From: Sporichthya brevicatena
Lineage (GTDB): Bacteria; Actinomycetota; Actinomycetes; Sporichthyales; Sporichthyaceae
Assembly: GCF_039525035.1 (NCBI RefSeq)
Contig: NZ_BAAAHE010000008.1
Span: 198,625 to 262,624 of the forward strand
Reading direction: 5' to 3'
Length of the DNA stretch: 64,000 nucleotides
Part shown: positions 3,386 through 59,289 of the stretch, in pieces
How the letters are laid out: each line of letters begins with the position of its first letter
How positions within the stretch are numbered: position 1 is the stretch's first letter
The notes under the pieces: generated by a model
The model's input: only the letters and a program-made list of their open reading frames with translations
Told to the model about the DNA's origin: nothing
Database searches by the model: none
Program-made: the position numbers and the translations under genes

Positions 3386-3458
3386 GCCGGCGTGGCGCAA
3401 TTGGTAGCGCACTCGACTTGTAATCGAAAGGTTGCCGGTTCAAGTCCGGCCGCCGGCT
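3386..3458 (+). tRNA. tRNA-Thr, anticodon UGU
   Basis: A complete 73-base cloverleaf. Acceptor stem GCCGGCG (3386-3392) pairs with CGCCGGC (3451-3457); the D stem is GCGC/GCGC; the anticodon loop CTTGTAA is at 3417-3423 with anticodon TGT at 3419-3421; the T arm is GCCGG-TTCAAGT-CCGGC; the discriminator is T3458. CCA is not encoded. A TAACCT box at 3370-3375 could be its -10. The 3' 42 bases of this gene are repeated exactly at three other places in the window, which marks it as an integration site. Confidence 0.95.
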
Positions 3459-3515
3459 CTTCTGACCTGCGGCAACGTTCGGCCCTCGCCGTTTTGCGAC
3501 ACCGATTACGTTAAG
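3417..3515 (+). other. attL-like site overlapping tRNA-Thr
   Basis: The segment 3417-3458 (anticodon loop to discriminator) is the 42-bp core shared without mismatch with the copies at 26566, 28382 and 59178; identity continues through CTTCTGA to 3465. About 50 bases past the core is TTACGTTAA (3507-3515), one mismatch from the TGACGTTAA arm repeats of the other copies. The double left-hand arm seen in the other copies is absent here, as expected for an attL in which the tRNA gene itself provides the left half. Confidence 0.7.
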
Positions 3516-3575
3516 GATGCCCACGGCTGTCGAGTGGTTGCGCCCACTCTGGCCGACTGGCGTGTCACTCTCGTC

Positions 3576-3822
3576 GGCGCGGGCGCCGCTGGGCACGAAT
3601 CCGGGTTGCGGATCTGGAGGCGATCTATGCGCATCCGCGGCAGGAGGCGCGGGCGTTGGAGCGGCGTGGAGTGTTGCACCGCCTCGCGCACGGTTTCTAC
3701 TGCGCGGTGCCGCCCGCGCACGATCCGGCGGTGTGGAAGCCGAGCACCGAGGCGGCGGGGCTTGACCCGGGACGGAACCGGCGCTGCTGCAAGAGAGGTC
3801 ACCTTGATCCAGCGAGACACGT
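3576..3822 (+). pseudogene. Remnant of abiEi fused by deletion to a piece of abiEii
   Basis: Bases 3576-3758 are nearly identical to the 5' part of the intact antitoxin gene (from about 26819), but lack its start and carry one extra base near 3598 that breaks the frame. From about 3759 the sequence jumps to a stretch matching the toxin gene: the 19 bases CGGAACCGGCGCTGCTGCA (3773-3791) are identical to bases near 27749. A deletion joining antitoxin to toxin explains this. The downstream reading frame happens to run open into the amidohydrolase gene, but this is not a functional N-terminal domain. Confidence 0.8.
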
Positions 3823-26451: not shown

Positions 26452-26663
26452 TGACGTTAAGGATGACGTTAAGCAGGATGCGATCGGCGTGGTTCCAGGG
26501 GGTTGGGAGGCTCCAGCCGCGACTCCGGCCAGCTGGTGGGGCGATGTGCGGTGGTCCTCGGTCGCCTTGTAATCGAAAGGTTGCCGGTTCAAGTCCGGCC
26601 GCCGGCTCTTCTGACCTGCGGAAACGTGCAGTCCTCGCCGTTTTGCGACATCGATGACGTTAA
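26452..26663 (+). repeat. att-like copy 2: tRNA-Thr 3' fragment with arm repeats
   Basis: The 42-bp core 26566-26607 is identical to tRNA-Thr 3417-3458; the 5' half of the tRNA is missing, so it is not a gene. Left arms TGACGTTAA occur at 26452-26460 and 26464-26472 (12-bp period), and a right arm at 26655-26663. About 110 bases between left arm and core are shared with copy 3. The interval 26377-26799 contains nothing else recognised. Confidence 0.8.
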
Positions 26664-26750
26664 CAATGCCCACCGCTGTCGAGCGGTTGGGTTCACTCCG
26701 ACCGCCTGGAGTGACCCTCTCGGCGAGGGCGGGTGGCGAACTGCGTTGCA

Positions 26751-26786
26751 CTTTACCCTGCGTAAAGTAGTTCAGAGGTCTACTAT
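26751..26786 (+). promoter_or_regulatory. Autoregulatory promoter of the abiE operon
   Basis: Two overlapping inverted repeats, CTTTAC-cctgc-GTAAAG (26751-26767) and AGTAG-N9-CTACT (26766-26784), cover a TACTAT -10 box (26781-26786). AbiEi antitoxins are known to bind inverted repeats in their own promoter through the N-terminal winged helix; this arrangement fits that model. Confidence 0.6.
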
Positions 26787-26799
26787 TTGCAGAGTGAAC

Positions 26800-27426
26800 A
26801 TGTCTGCCGGGCAGTTGGCGGCGCGGGCGCCGCTGGGCACGATCCGGGTTGCGGATCTGGCTGCGATCTATGCGCATCCGCGGCAGGAGGCGCGGGCGTT
26901 GGAGCGGCGTGGAGTGTTGCACCGCCTCGCCCACGGTTTCTACTGCGCGGTTCCGCCCGAGCATGATCCGGCAGTGTGGAAGCCGAGCACCGAGGCGGCG
27001 GCGGCCGGGATCGCGACCGCGCTGTACGGGGATCGGGTGCCGGTGCTCACCGGCCTCAGTGCCGCCCGGGTCCACCGGGTGCTGCCGCGGGCGATCGCGG
27101 TGGGGTTCGTCGCGGTCCCGGGTTCGCGCCGGCCGTTGCGCTTCGCTGACCGCCCTGGGGTGGTGCGCTTCGTCGAGCGCGACGTCACTCGCCTGGACGC
27201 CGAACTCCTCAGCACCGACCTCGGACTGGCGTTGGCCACGACCGCGGAGCAGACGGTGCTCGATCTCGCGCACGCGGATCCCACCGGCGCCGACGCCGAC
27301 ACCGTCGCGGCGATCGATGCGCTGTGGGCCCGCTGCGAGGCCGAGGTGCTCGAGCAGATCGCCGGCACACAGCGGATGCGCGCCACCCTGGCCCGCGTGC
27401 GCGAACAGGTCGGTGCCCGCCGGTGA
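26800..27426 (+). CDS. abiEi: Type IV toxin-antitoxin system antitoxin, AbiEi family
   Basis: A 208-residue protein with an N-terminal winged-helix (TIRVADLAAIYAHPRQEAR, then RRGVLHRLAHGFYCAVP) and a C-terminal domain (VLTGLSAARVHRVLPRA; TTAEQTVLDLAH), the layout of AbiEi antitoxins. It would repress its own promoter and counter the AbiEii nucleotidyltransferase without direct binding, as known for type IV systems. ATG 26800 is chosen; GTG 26794 is possible. It is the only intact copy; decayed copies are at 3576 and 28549. The toxin gene overlaps its stop by four bases. Confidence 0.85.
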   Translation: MSAGQLAARAPLGTIRVADLAAIYAHPRQEARALERRGVLHRLAHGFYCAVPPEHDPAVWKPSTEAAAAGIATALYGDRVPVLTGLSAARVHRVLPRAIAVGFVAVPGSRRPLRFADRPGVVRFVERDVTRLDAELLSTDLGLALATTAEQTVLDLAHADPTGADADTVAAIDALWARCEAEVLEQIAGTQRMRATLARVREQVGARR

Positions 27427-28223
27427 GCGCTCCGGTCCCGGGGGAATGGGAAGCGATCGCCGCCCAATTCGGTGTGGACCTGGCTCAGGTACGCCGCGAT
27501 CACCTCATCTCCCACGTCCTGGCCGCGCTCTCCCAACACCTGCCCGACGCGGAGATCGTGTTCTTCGGTGGCACCGCGCTGGCCCGCACCTACCTGCTCG
27601 ACGGGCGCCTGAGCGAGGACATCGACCTGATCGCCCGCGGCAATCGAGCCCAGATCTGCGCCCGTATCGAGCGCGCAATGGCGACCGCTCTGCGCCGCAG
27701 TCATGGCCGCCCGACCTGGACGCCGCCGCTGACCCGGACCCGCTACGCGGAACCGGCGCTGCTGCAGGTCGTGGACGGCACCTCGATCCAGGTCCAGGTT
27801 CTTTCCTCGACGGGCTACCCAGACTGGCCCACCGAGATCGTCGAGTTGCACCAGCGCTATTCCGACGCACCACCGGCGCGCCTGCGCGTGCTCACCGTCG
27901 AGGCGTTCGTTGCGGCCAAGATCGTTGCGTGGCTCGACCGGCGCGCGCCCCGTGACCTCTACGACCTGGCCGCCCTCGCCCACCGGAGCCTGATCACCCC
28001 GACCGCCGTGCAGTGCCTGCGCCGCTACGGTGCCGCGTCCAGCCCGCCGTCGCCCCGCGACCTCGGCGGACCACCCACCGAAGCTGCCTGGCAACAAGCC
28101 CTCGCGCACCAGACCCGCCTCGAAACCACCGCCGCGGACGCCCTGGCCGCCCTCGCGAACGCATGGGCTAAAGCCCTATCCCGCACAGAAAATGACGATA
28201 CGTCAGACGCCTCGGACGGTTGA
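27423..28223 (+). CDS. abiEii: Nucleotidyltransferase toxin, AbiEii/AbiGii family
   Basis: A 266-residue DNA polymerase beta-like nucleotidyltransferase. The signature FFGGTALARTYL (GG-T at about residues 49-51) followed by RLSEDIDLI (catalytic Asp pair near 66 and 68) matches AbiEii. AAKIVAWLDRRAPRDLYDL is the family's C-terminal K-x-x-R-x-x-x-D-x-x-D-like motif. AbiEii-type toxins modify tRNA or use nucleotides to stop growth during phage infection or after element loss. GTG 27423 gives the GTGA overlap with abiEi. Confidence 0.87.
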   Translation: MSAPVPGEWEAIAAQFGVDLAQVRRDHLISHVLAALSQHLPDAEIVFFGGTALARTYLLDGRLSEDIDLIARGNRAQICARIERAMATALRRSHGRPTWTPPLTRTRYAEPALLQVVDGTSIQVQVLSSTGYPDWPTEIVELHQRYSDAPPARLRVLTVEAFVAAKIVAWLDRRAPRDLYDLAALAHRSLITPTAVQCLRRYGAASSPPSPRDLGGPPTEAAWQQALAHQTRLETTAADALAALANAWAKALSRTENDDTSDASDG

Positions 28224-28271
28224 TCTGCTCCCCCGACTGGCGCCGGCCGGCCCGGGCATCGGAGGCCACCA

Positions 28272-28479
28272 TGACGTTAAGAATGACGTTAAGCAGGGTG
28301 CGATCGGCGTGGTTCCAGGGGGTTGTGAGGCTCCAGCCGAGGCTCTGGCGCGCTGGGGTGAGGTGCGGTGCTTCTCGGCGCCTTGTAATCGAAAGGTTGC
28401 CGGTTCAAGTCCGGCCGCCGGCTCTTCTGAGCTGCGAAAACGCGCGATCCTCGCCGTTTCGCGACATCGATGACGTTAA
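28272..28479 (+). repeat. att-like copy 3: tRNA-Thr 3' fragment with arm repeats
   Basis: Core 28382-28423 is identical to the tRNA 3' end. Left arms TGACGTTAA are at 28272-28280 and 28284-28292, the right arm at 28471-28479. It is closely similar to copy 2 over more than 200 bp. Together, copies 2 and 3 bracket the abiE pair; recombination between cores would release 1,816 bp. Confidence 0.8.
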
Positions 28480-28548
28480 GGATGCCCAGGCGCTGTCGAG
28501 CGGTTGCGCTCACTCTGACCAACTGGCGTGACGCTCTCGGGGCGACCT

Positions 28549-29004
28549 CGGGCGCCGCTGGGCACGATCCGGGTCGCCTGGCTGCGATCTATGCATCCCC
28601 GGCAGGAGGCTCGGCGCTCAGCGGGCGCGGACTGTTGCACCGCGTCGCGCACGGTTCTACTGCGCGGTCCCGCCCGAGCACGATCCGGGGGTGTGGACGC
28701 CCAGCGCCGAGGCGGCGGCCAGGATCGCGGCCCCGCTGTACGGGACCGGGTGCCGGTGCTCACCGGCCTCAGCGCTGCCCGTGTCCACCGGGTGTGGCCC
28801 GGGCGATCGCGGTGGAATTCGTCGCGGTCCCGGGCTCGCGCCGCCCTCTGCGCTTCGCTGACCGCCCTCGCGAGTGCGCTTCGTCGGACGAGGTCACCCG
28901 CCTTGACGCCGAACTCTCAGCACCGACCTCGGACCTGCGTTGGCCACGACCGCGGAGCAGACCGTGCTCGACCTCGCGCACGCCGCCCCCACCGGCGCTG
29001 ACTA
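28549..29004 (+). pseudogene. Decayed abiEi antitoxin copy
   Basis: The stretch aligns with the intact abiEi from about 26824 to near 27290, with several single-base deletions that break the frame (for example in the segment after the winged helix and around 28700-28760) and no start. No matching toxin gene follows. Bases 29005-29188, up to the SDR 3' end, hold nothing recognised. Confidence 0.8.
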
Positions 29005-59063: not shown

Positions 59064-59289
59064 TGACGTTAAGGATGACGTTAAGACTGCGGGGCCCACG
59101 GGGGATCGCGCGGGCGGTGGGGCTCGAACGGATGCTGCCGTACGCTGGCGAGGGCGACTGCGGTACTTGGCGGCCGCCTTGTAATCGAAAGGTTGCCGGT
59201 TCAAGTCCGGCCGCCGGCTCTTCTGACCTGCGGAAACGTGCGGTCCTAGCCGTTTTACGACATCAATGACGTTAAGGCGCGTAACGTCA
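59064..59289 (+). repeat. att-like copy 4: tRNA-Thr 3' fragment with arm repeats
   Basis: Core 59178-59219 is identical to tRNA-Thr 3417-3458. Left arms TGACGTTAA are at 59064-59072 and 59076-59084 (12-bp period, as in copies 2 and 3), the right arm at 59267-59275, and an inverted arm-like TAACGTCA follows near 59282-59289. Homology to copy 2 continues about 120 bases past the core, so this site also has a right arm. No abiE remnant follows. The stretch 58932-59508 holds no gene that I can support. Confidence 0.78.

Follow-up and report, generated by a model that had tools for sequence, protein, structure and literature searches.

The window analysed here is a stretch of 64,000 nucleotides from Sporichthya brevicatena (G000:C8:198625-262624). 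It carries an intact tRNA-Thr(TGT) gene that anchors an array of islands, each separated from the next by a repeat of the 3' half of the tRNA gene. One of these units contains only an AbiE toxin-antitoxin (TA) pair and belongs to a tandem series of at least six accreted elements behind the tRNA gene. The relevant features, all on the forward strand, are as follows.

3386..3459, +: tRNA-Thr(TGT), intact, anchor of the array (ARAGORN)
3417-3459, +: core copy 1, the 3' half of tRNA-Thr(TGT) (pattern search)
3507-3515, +: right arm-like site TACGTTAAG after core copy 1 (pattern search)
3575..3758, +: abiEi relic at the start of island E1, 96% identical to 26819-27001
3773-3812, +: abiEii fragment after the abiEi relic of E1, 80% identical over 44 bp
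26453..26473, +: paired arm sites GACGTTAAG-N3-GACGTTAAG, the left arms of copy 2 and right end of island E1
26566..26608, +: core copy 2, tRNA-Thr 3' half
26656..26664, +: right arm of copy 2, GACGTTAAC, with a final base unlike that of the other copies
26750..26784, +: two inverted repeats before abiEi, ACTTTACcctgcGTAAAGT and AGTAGttcagaggtCTACT, a putative AbiEi operator
26800..27426, +: abiEi, antitoxin/repressor of 208 aa (PADLOC E=5.8e-74)
27423..28223, +: abiEii, nucleotidyltransferase toxin of 266 aa with a GTG start (PF08843 E=4e-28; PADLOC E=5e-101)
28273..28293, +: paired arm sites, the left arms of copy 3 and right end of the TA unit
28382..28424, +: core copy 3, 1,816 bp past copy 2
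28472..28480, +: right arm of copy 3, start of island E3
28549..29002, +: frameshifted abiEi relic at the start of E3, 86% identical to 26824-27294 with 10 gap openings
59065..59276, +: copy 4, comprising left arms, core (59178-59220) and right arm; end of E3 and start of E4

The genes abiEi and abiEii are the sole genes between copies 2 and 3. Both reading frames are intact and overlap by 4 nt. AbiEii retains the invariant GGT, SEDxD, K and RDxxD positions in a nine-sequence alignment of relatives. AbiEi scores 23.7 bits against Pfam AbiEi_4, slightly under the cut-off of 25. The first inverted repeat, ACTTTAC-N5-GTAAAGT, lies at 26750-26768 upstream of abiEi, and the second one is weaker. 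The AbiE system of S. agalactiae has likewise been described with a 4-nt overlap of its two genes and with inverted repeats to which AbiEi binds (PMC3985639). The motifs of AbiEii, the winged-HTH antitoxin AbiEi encoded upstream in the same operon and the inverted repeats are those of a type IV TA system of the AbiE class. From these sequence features, we infer toxin and antitoxin activity, by which AbiEii would reversibly arrest growth and AbiEi would relieve the arrest with no complex being formed, and predict that the operon is autoregulated.

The boundaries of the unit are defined by the repeats. A 34-bp probe from the tRNA 3' half has five exact matches in the genome, all on C8 and in one orientation, and the reversed control pattern has none. 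The full 43-bp core CTTGTAATCGAAAGGTTGCCGGTTCAAGTCCGGCCGCCGGCTC is found exactly at window positions 3417, 26566, 28382 and 59178, as well as at C8:311987 beyond the window. Every internal copy in the window is preceded by direct repeats of GACGTTAAG 12 bp apart, at -112/-100 (-108/-96 in copy 3), and is followed by one right arm at +91. The spacing of the right arm is constant across copies 1-6. This arm-core-arm geometry is kept, while the flanks drift. Copies 2 and 3, whose cores are 1,816 bp apart, share 52 bp free of mismatches, and the whole repeat of 273 bp is 87.9% identical between them. Copies 1-5 have one and the same 43-bp core, against 75-88% identity for the whole repeat between full copies. 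By our own arithmetic, 52 straight matches at the identity of approximately 85% seen outside the core have a chance of about 2 in 10,000, so conservation or homogenisation has been stronger in the core than in its flanks. A chance origin of the att-bounded arrangement is excluded. The perfect cores within drifted repeats suggest that recombination is recent or still going on, or that the cores exchange sequence with the tRNA gene. ARAGORN also reports a 'tRNA-???' at 59134-59220, which is the partial tRNA of core copy 4 and not a tRNA gene. In a preliminary description of this DNA, a 1.8-kb unit containing only AbiE was placed between two full att sites. This holds for the complete copies 2 and 3. 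The coordinates given then, 26452-28479, enclose the unit with a small shift, since the two sites span 26453-26664 and 28273-28480.

The TA unit lies between E1 and E3, islands that encode P450s, acyl-CoA ligase-like enzymes, SDRs, hydantoinase/oxoprolinase and thiolase genes. Both islands begin with relics of the window's own abiE at the same position, and abiE therefore seems to have belonged to this element type for a long time. Only the cargo-free units have it intact, the copies in E1 and E3 being decayed. A congener (G001) has two further cores behind the same tRNA-Thr gene. The last of them has the left-arm side, lacks the right-arm region and is followed by the chromosome; the right-arm region is thereby shown to be part of the elements. 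The chromosomal flank to the right of this array matches another contig of the S. brevicatena assembly, C11. Thus, C8 and C11 are neighbours, and the array runs to its end on the reversed C11. This part has a sixth site, whose core is mutated, then another abiEi-abiEii pair and, 1,716 bp past the start of the core, a lone left-arm pair. This AbiE-only unit closes the array and would measure approximately 1,828 bp if its spacing is normal. No core-like sequence was found in the following 4.2 kb, where its right core would lie. The window and C11 pairs fall into different PADLOC subfamilies and can hardly be aligned. Other contents are seen in the array of the congener: a 3.4-kb unit encodes a protein of 848 aa with weak Ig-like and propeller matches (L054:3327-5873), and a 32.6-kb island opens with a Fic gene (L052:6468-7694) where S. 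brevicatena has abiE.

A profile search with PF00589 found no tyrosine recombinase in the examined parts of the array on C8 and C11 or in the array of the congener. A tyrosine integrase next to an NYN-domain gene at another locus (L168:2-727) has a PHROG match only and lies beyond the Pfam model. The absence of PF00589 matches therefore does not fully exclude an integrase. The divergent integrase (see below for G1021) was also used as a query and had no match in the examined parts of the array. Likewise, no integrase that would pair with the GACGTTAAG arms turned up in the S. brevicatena contigs, which leave a gap between C8 and C11. Excision of the unit would thus need an integrase acting in trans. 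In viral contigs, phages and plasmids, neither the att region or its patterns nor the divergent integrase was found. No relatives of AbiEii were found in phages and viral contigs; four Rhodococcus plasmids carry relatives with 46-48% identity. The P-arm pattern, when searched over all genome contigs, gave a single match in an unrelated actinobacterial MAG (L040), which is about the chance level and was set aside. An integron gene cassette, which would have an attC site in an array beside an IntI-type integrase, was also rejected as a class for the unit, because its repeat is the 3' half of tRNA-Thr with arm sites and not attC, and no integrase gene was found in the examined parts of the array.

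AbiE units of this kind are not confined to this array. Within the class, 32 of 394 genomes have relatives of AbiEii; within the order to which another species, G205, belongs, the number is 28 of 399 under a stricter threshold. When direct repeats of at least 34 bp and at least 80% identity were required, they flanked 10 of 39 related AbiE loci and 4 of 456 control windows, all four controls lying at one place. This strict threshold was used because a looser one was uninformative (14/39 loci against 51/228 controls). Three units resemble that of the window. In G115, the unit measures 1,829 bp and is bounded by a 47-bp repeat of tRNA-Thr(CGT). The unit of G205 (1,689 bp) has an imperfect 38-bp repeat of the tRNA-Met 3' half, and that of G147 (1,693 bp) has a 40-bp repeat of the terminator after tRNA-Arg. 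A search with an integrase profile found none inside these three units. The flanks of the G205 unit, once joined, are contiguous in the sister species G457 and G595. The unit is therefore a precise, lineage-specific insertion, whereas no empty site was found for that of G115. The preliminary description had called for a search for 1-2-kb TA modules flanked by tRNA cores, and these three loci, one of them with empty sites for comparison, show that similar units exist elsewhere. TA-only units, recurring at other tRNA genes of unrelated actinobacteria, look like a repeatedly arising kind of stripped-down mobile element.

The AbiE loci of this survey are diverse. In other species of the genus of G205, abiE lies at the same tRNA-Met and the second repeat is absent; none was found either at several mycobacterial-type AbiE loci next to tRNA-Met. 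At one tRNA-Met locus (G298, L112), transposase-like ORFs, IS3-like by sequence reading, lie immediately upstream of abiEi. One segment bounded by tRNA cores (G1082, L176) holds two different AbiE loci, the second of which is truncated. Some candidates were rejected as att-bounded units. G379 (L106) passed the strict threshold, but its repeats are shared promoter and gene-start sequence with a LexA box. Here, abiE is located between two genes with a common LexA-box-like promoter, GAACATATGTTC, one of which is DnaE-like by sequence reading. At L190, L191 and L197, the repeats resemble coding sequence and are possibly duplicated genes, and the repeat of G398 (L182) does not derive from the nearby tRNA.

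The flanks of the G115 unit, used as a query in the bacterial family of G115 (f34), revealed 3' halves of tRNA-Thr(CGT) that are repeated in many genomes, mostly 1-9 kb apart. In 13 of 29 such cores, repeats paired at a period of 10-12 bp begin between -118 and -102, compared with 13 of 1,200 random bands. The geometry is that of the S. brevicatena array, with paired arms one helical turn apart, and the arm sequences are different. At the loci L162-L181 of f34 genomes, the arrays consist of units of about 1-9 kb, and the paired arm-like repeats at about -110 vary in sequence between units. These units contain genes for secreted-looking proteins, AbiE, a HigA-like HTH gene and integrase fragments.

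The paired arms of the G115 AbiE unit, CTAATAACCC, are identical to those of an element in G1021, a genome of the same family. The G1021 arms, CTAATAACCCGCTAATAACCC, lie at -108, and the surrounding left-arm regions are closely similar in the two genomes. Inside the G1021 site are an NYN gene and the divergent tyrosine integrase (PHROG integrase E=9.5e-11; no Pfam match). The G115 unit retains a scar of the C-terminal part of this integrase, in the same orientation, beside its right arms (protein E=4e-7; DNA 77% over 57 bp, E=4e-7). From the identical arms and the scar, the history of the G115 unit can be read as a change from arms-integrase-cargo-arms to arms-scar-abiE-arms. The scar is seen in the G115 unit and not in the window unit.

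We propose that the window unit is an integrase-less mini-island of the CIME type, which arose from an integrase-bearing element by deletion and may still be mobilised in trans; we give this reading a probability of roughly two in three. Copies 2 and 3, each with its arms and core, have the form of the attL and attR bounds of a site-specific recombinase. Between them are abiEi and abiEii alone, in an array free of PF00589 matches in its examined parts, so genes for recombination or transfer are lacking as in CIMEs. An integrase of its own, a relaxase or conjugation genes, as in an IME or ICE, are not present in the unit. The abiE operon would thus be enclosed by the two halves of an attP. In this proposal, an ancestor with both an integrase and abiE would have lost the integrase and its cargo, a step suggested by the scar in G115. 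The operon would have been retained as it is costly to lose, provides phage defence, or both; addiction, defence and control of excision by AbiEi are candidate routes of retention. A tyrosine integrase specific for tRNA-Thr, supplied by another element, could excise the unit as a 1,816-bp circle or move it.

How far the unit is still alive, and why AbiE is kept, can be read in other ways. It may be an immobile fossil, the last, non-recombining remnant of an accreted island whose TA pair survives because its loss arrests growth. The lack of an integrase in the examined parts of the array, the decay of abiE in E1 and E3, the missing right core of the C11 unit and the one changed base in the right arm of copy 2 would all fit such a remnant. 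The cores of copies 1-5, however, are identical over 43 bp within repeats that are only 75-88% identical as a whole, and the spacing of the arms is constant, and we regard the fossil as rather unlikely. Somewhat more credit, still well short of even odds, is given to the idea that AbiE is kept for phage defence and that the att frame is merely the route by which defence cargo reaches a tRNA hotspot. AbiE can confer phage resistance (PMC3985639) and is listed among the defence families in PADLOC, and an AbiEii with no relatives in the phage and viral collections looks like bacterial cargo. Nevertheless, defence is compatible with the other readings, and the sequence does not separate it from stabilisation.

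The preliminary description had gone further and regarded the unit as a mobile stabilising module that was inserted between two catabolic islands and guards the array. An att-bounded unit with TA genes only is indeed located between such islands, whereas its insertion as such is not supported: the relics in E1 and E3 and the scar in G115 indicate the reduction of larger elements. A dedicated module would spread as an AbiE-only unit by integrases acting in trans, and its addiction would protect the neighbouring islands. Units at different tRNA genes have similar sizes (1,816, approximately 1,828, 1,829, 1,689 and 1,693 bp), two unrelated AbiE pairs occupy the same frame in the window and C11, and the G205 unit was inserted precisely. 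Moreover, AbiE stabilises an ICE in S. suis (PMC11062541) and plasmids in E. coli (PMC3985639). In the S. suis ICE, AbiE acts together with a second TA system, and the effect was traced to the antitoxins and not the toxins, so plain post-segregational killing is not to be assumed. The guarding role is weak as well as unproven: recombination between copies 2 and 3 drops the TA unit alone, and only deletions that span the unit could be protected against. Since the unit can be lost by itself, and the arms of the different units are linked by geometry alone, we consider a dedicated module improbable. The unit would be only apparent if homologous recombination had duplicated the att region, or if the draft assembly of 89 contigs were wrong here, as can happen with repeats of about 270 bp. 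This is extremely improbable, given that about 12% of sites are different between copies 2 and 3, that the geometry is fixed and that independent equivalents exist in other genomes.

Beyond the reduced mini-island in this window, a broader and clearly speculative picture can be drawn, which we would hold to be doubtful at present. In several actinobacterial families, small cassettes that lack an integrase may be arrayed at tRNA genes, each cassette having the 3' half of the tRNA as its boundary and, at about -110, a pair of arms of its own spaced by one helical turn. Such arrays would be fed by integrases in trans, with an integron-like outcome, and AbiE operons would be a favoured, self-retaining cassette that re-forms as TA-only units. 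Judging from the tRNA-Thr arrays of family f34, accretion arrays with no integrase would seem to be common and too little described. These loci bear on the question of what keeps TA operons on islands: they may serve the island as addiction modules, or be selfish and survive its loss. The TA-only unit, its decayed relatives in the neighbouring islands, the unrelated AbiE pair on C11, the integrase scar in a foreign genome and the empty site together provide a traceable path from an island to a bare TA operon.

CIMEs and the tandem accretion of ICEs, IMEs and CIMEs at one target gene are established (PMC5704250, citing Pavlovic 2004 and Bellanger 2011). Like them, the window unit keeps attL and attR, has no integration or transfer genes and shares one tRNA 3' end with related elements arranged in tandem. 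Compared with the CIMEs described there, the window unit is just 1.8 kb, consists of a TA operon alone, has no functional partner in sight and recurs with unrelated AbiE pairs and at other tRNAs. The preliminary description called TA-only elements of this type rarely described; for AbiE-only units bounded by tRNA repeats, no description was found in a literature search of incomplete coverage. The AbiE systems of PMC3985639 and of ICESsuHN105 (PMC11062541) share with the window unit the abiEi-abiEii operon, the 4-nt overlap, the upstream inverted repeats and the location in an integrated element. In ICESsuHN105, however, AbiE is one cargo among those of a full ICE, whereas in the window it is the entire unit. 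The island arrays at ssrA of Dehalococcoides (PMC3146451) are similar in that catabolic islands follow a single RNA gene one after another, with repeats of the 3' end of that gene as their bounds, and that some units have no integration genes. Those arrays use serine recombinases and a 20-bp repeat, whereas the window has tRNA-Thr, a 43-bp core and the arm geometry typical of tyrosine integrases; also, the examined parts of its array contain no integration module. A TA-bearing element within a composite island at a tRNA gene is also seen with HipAB at tRNA-Trp (PMC8978831), where it stabilises the whole island. HipAB is one gene pair of the larger GI21, which is excised by an integrase and an excisionase, while in the window the TA pair is the whole unit and no integrase was found.
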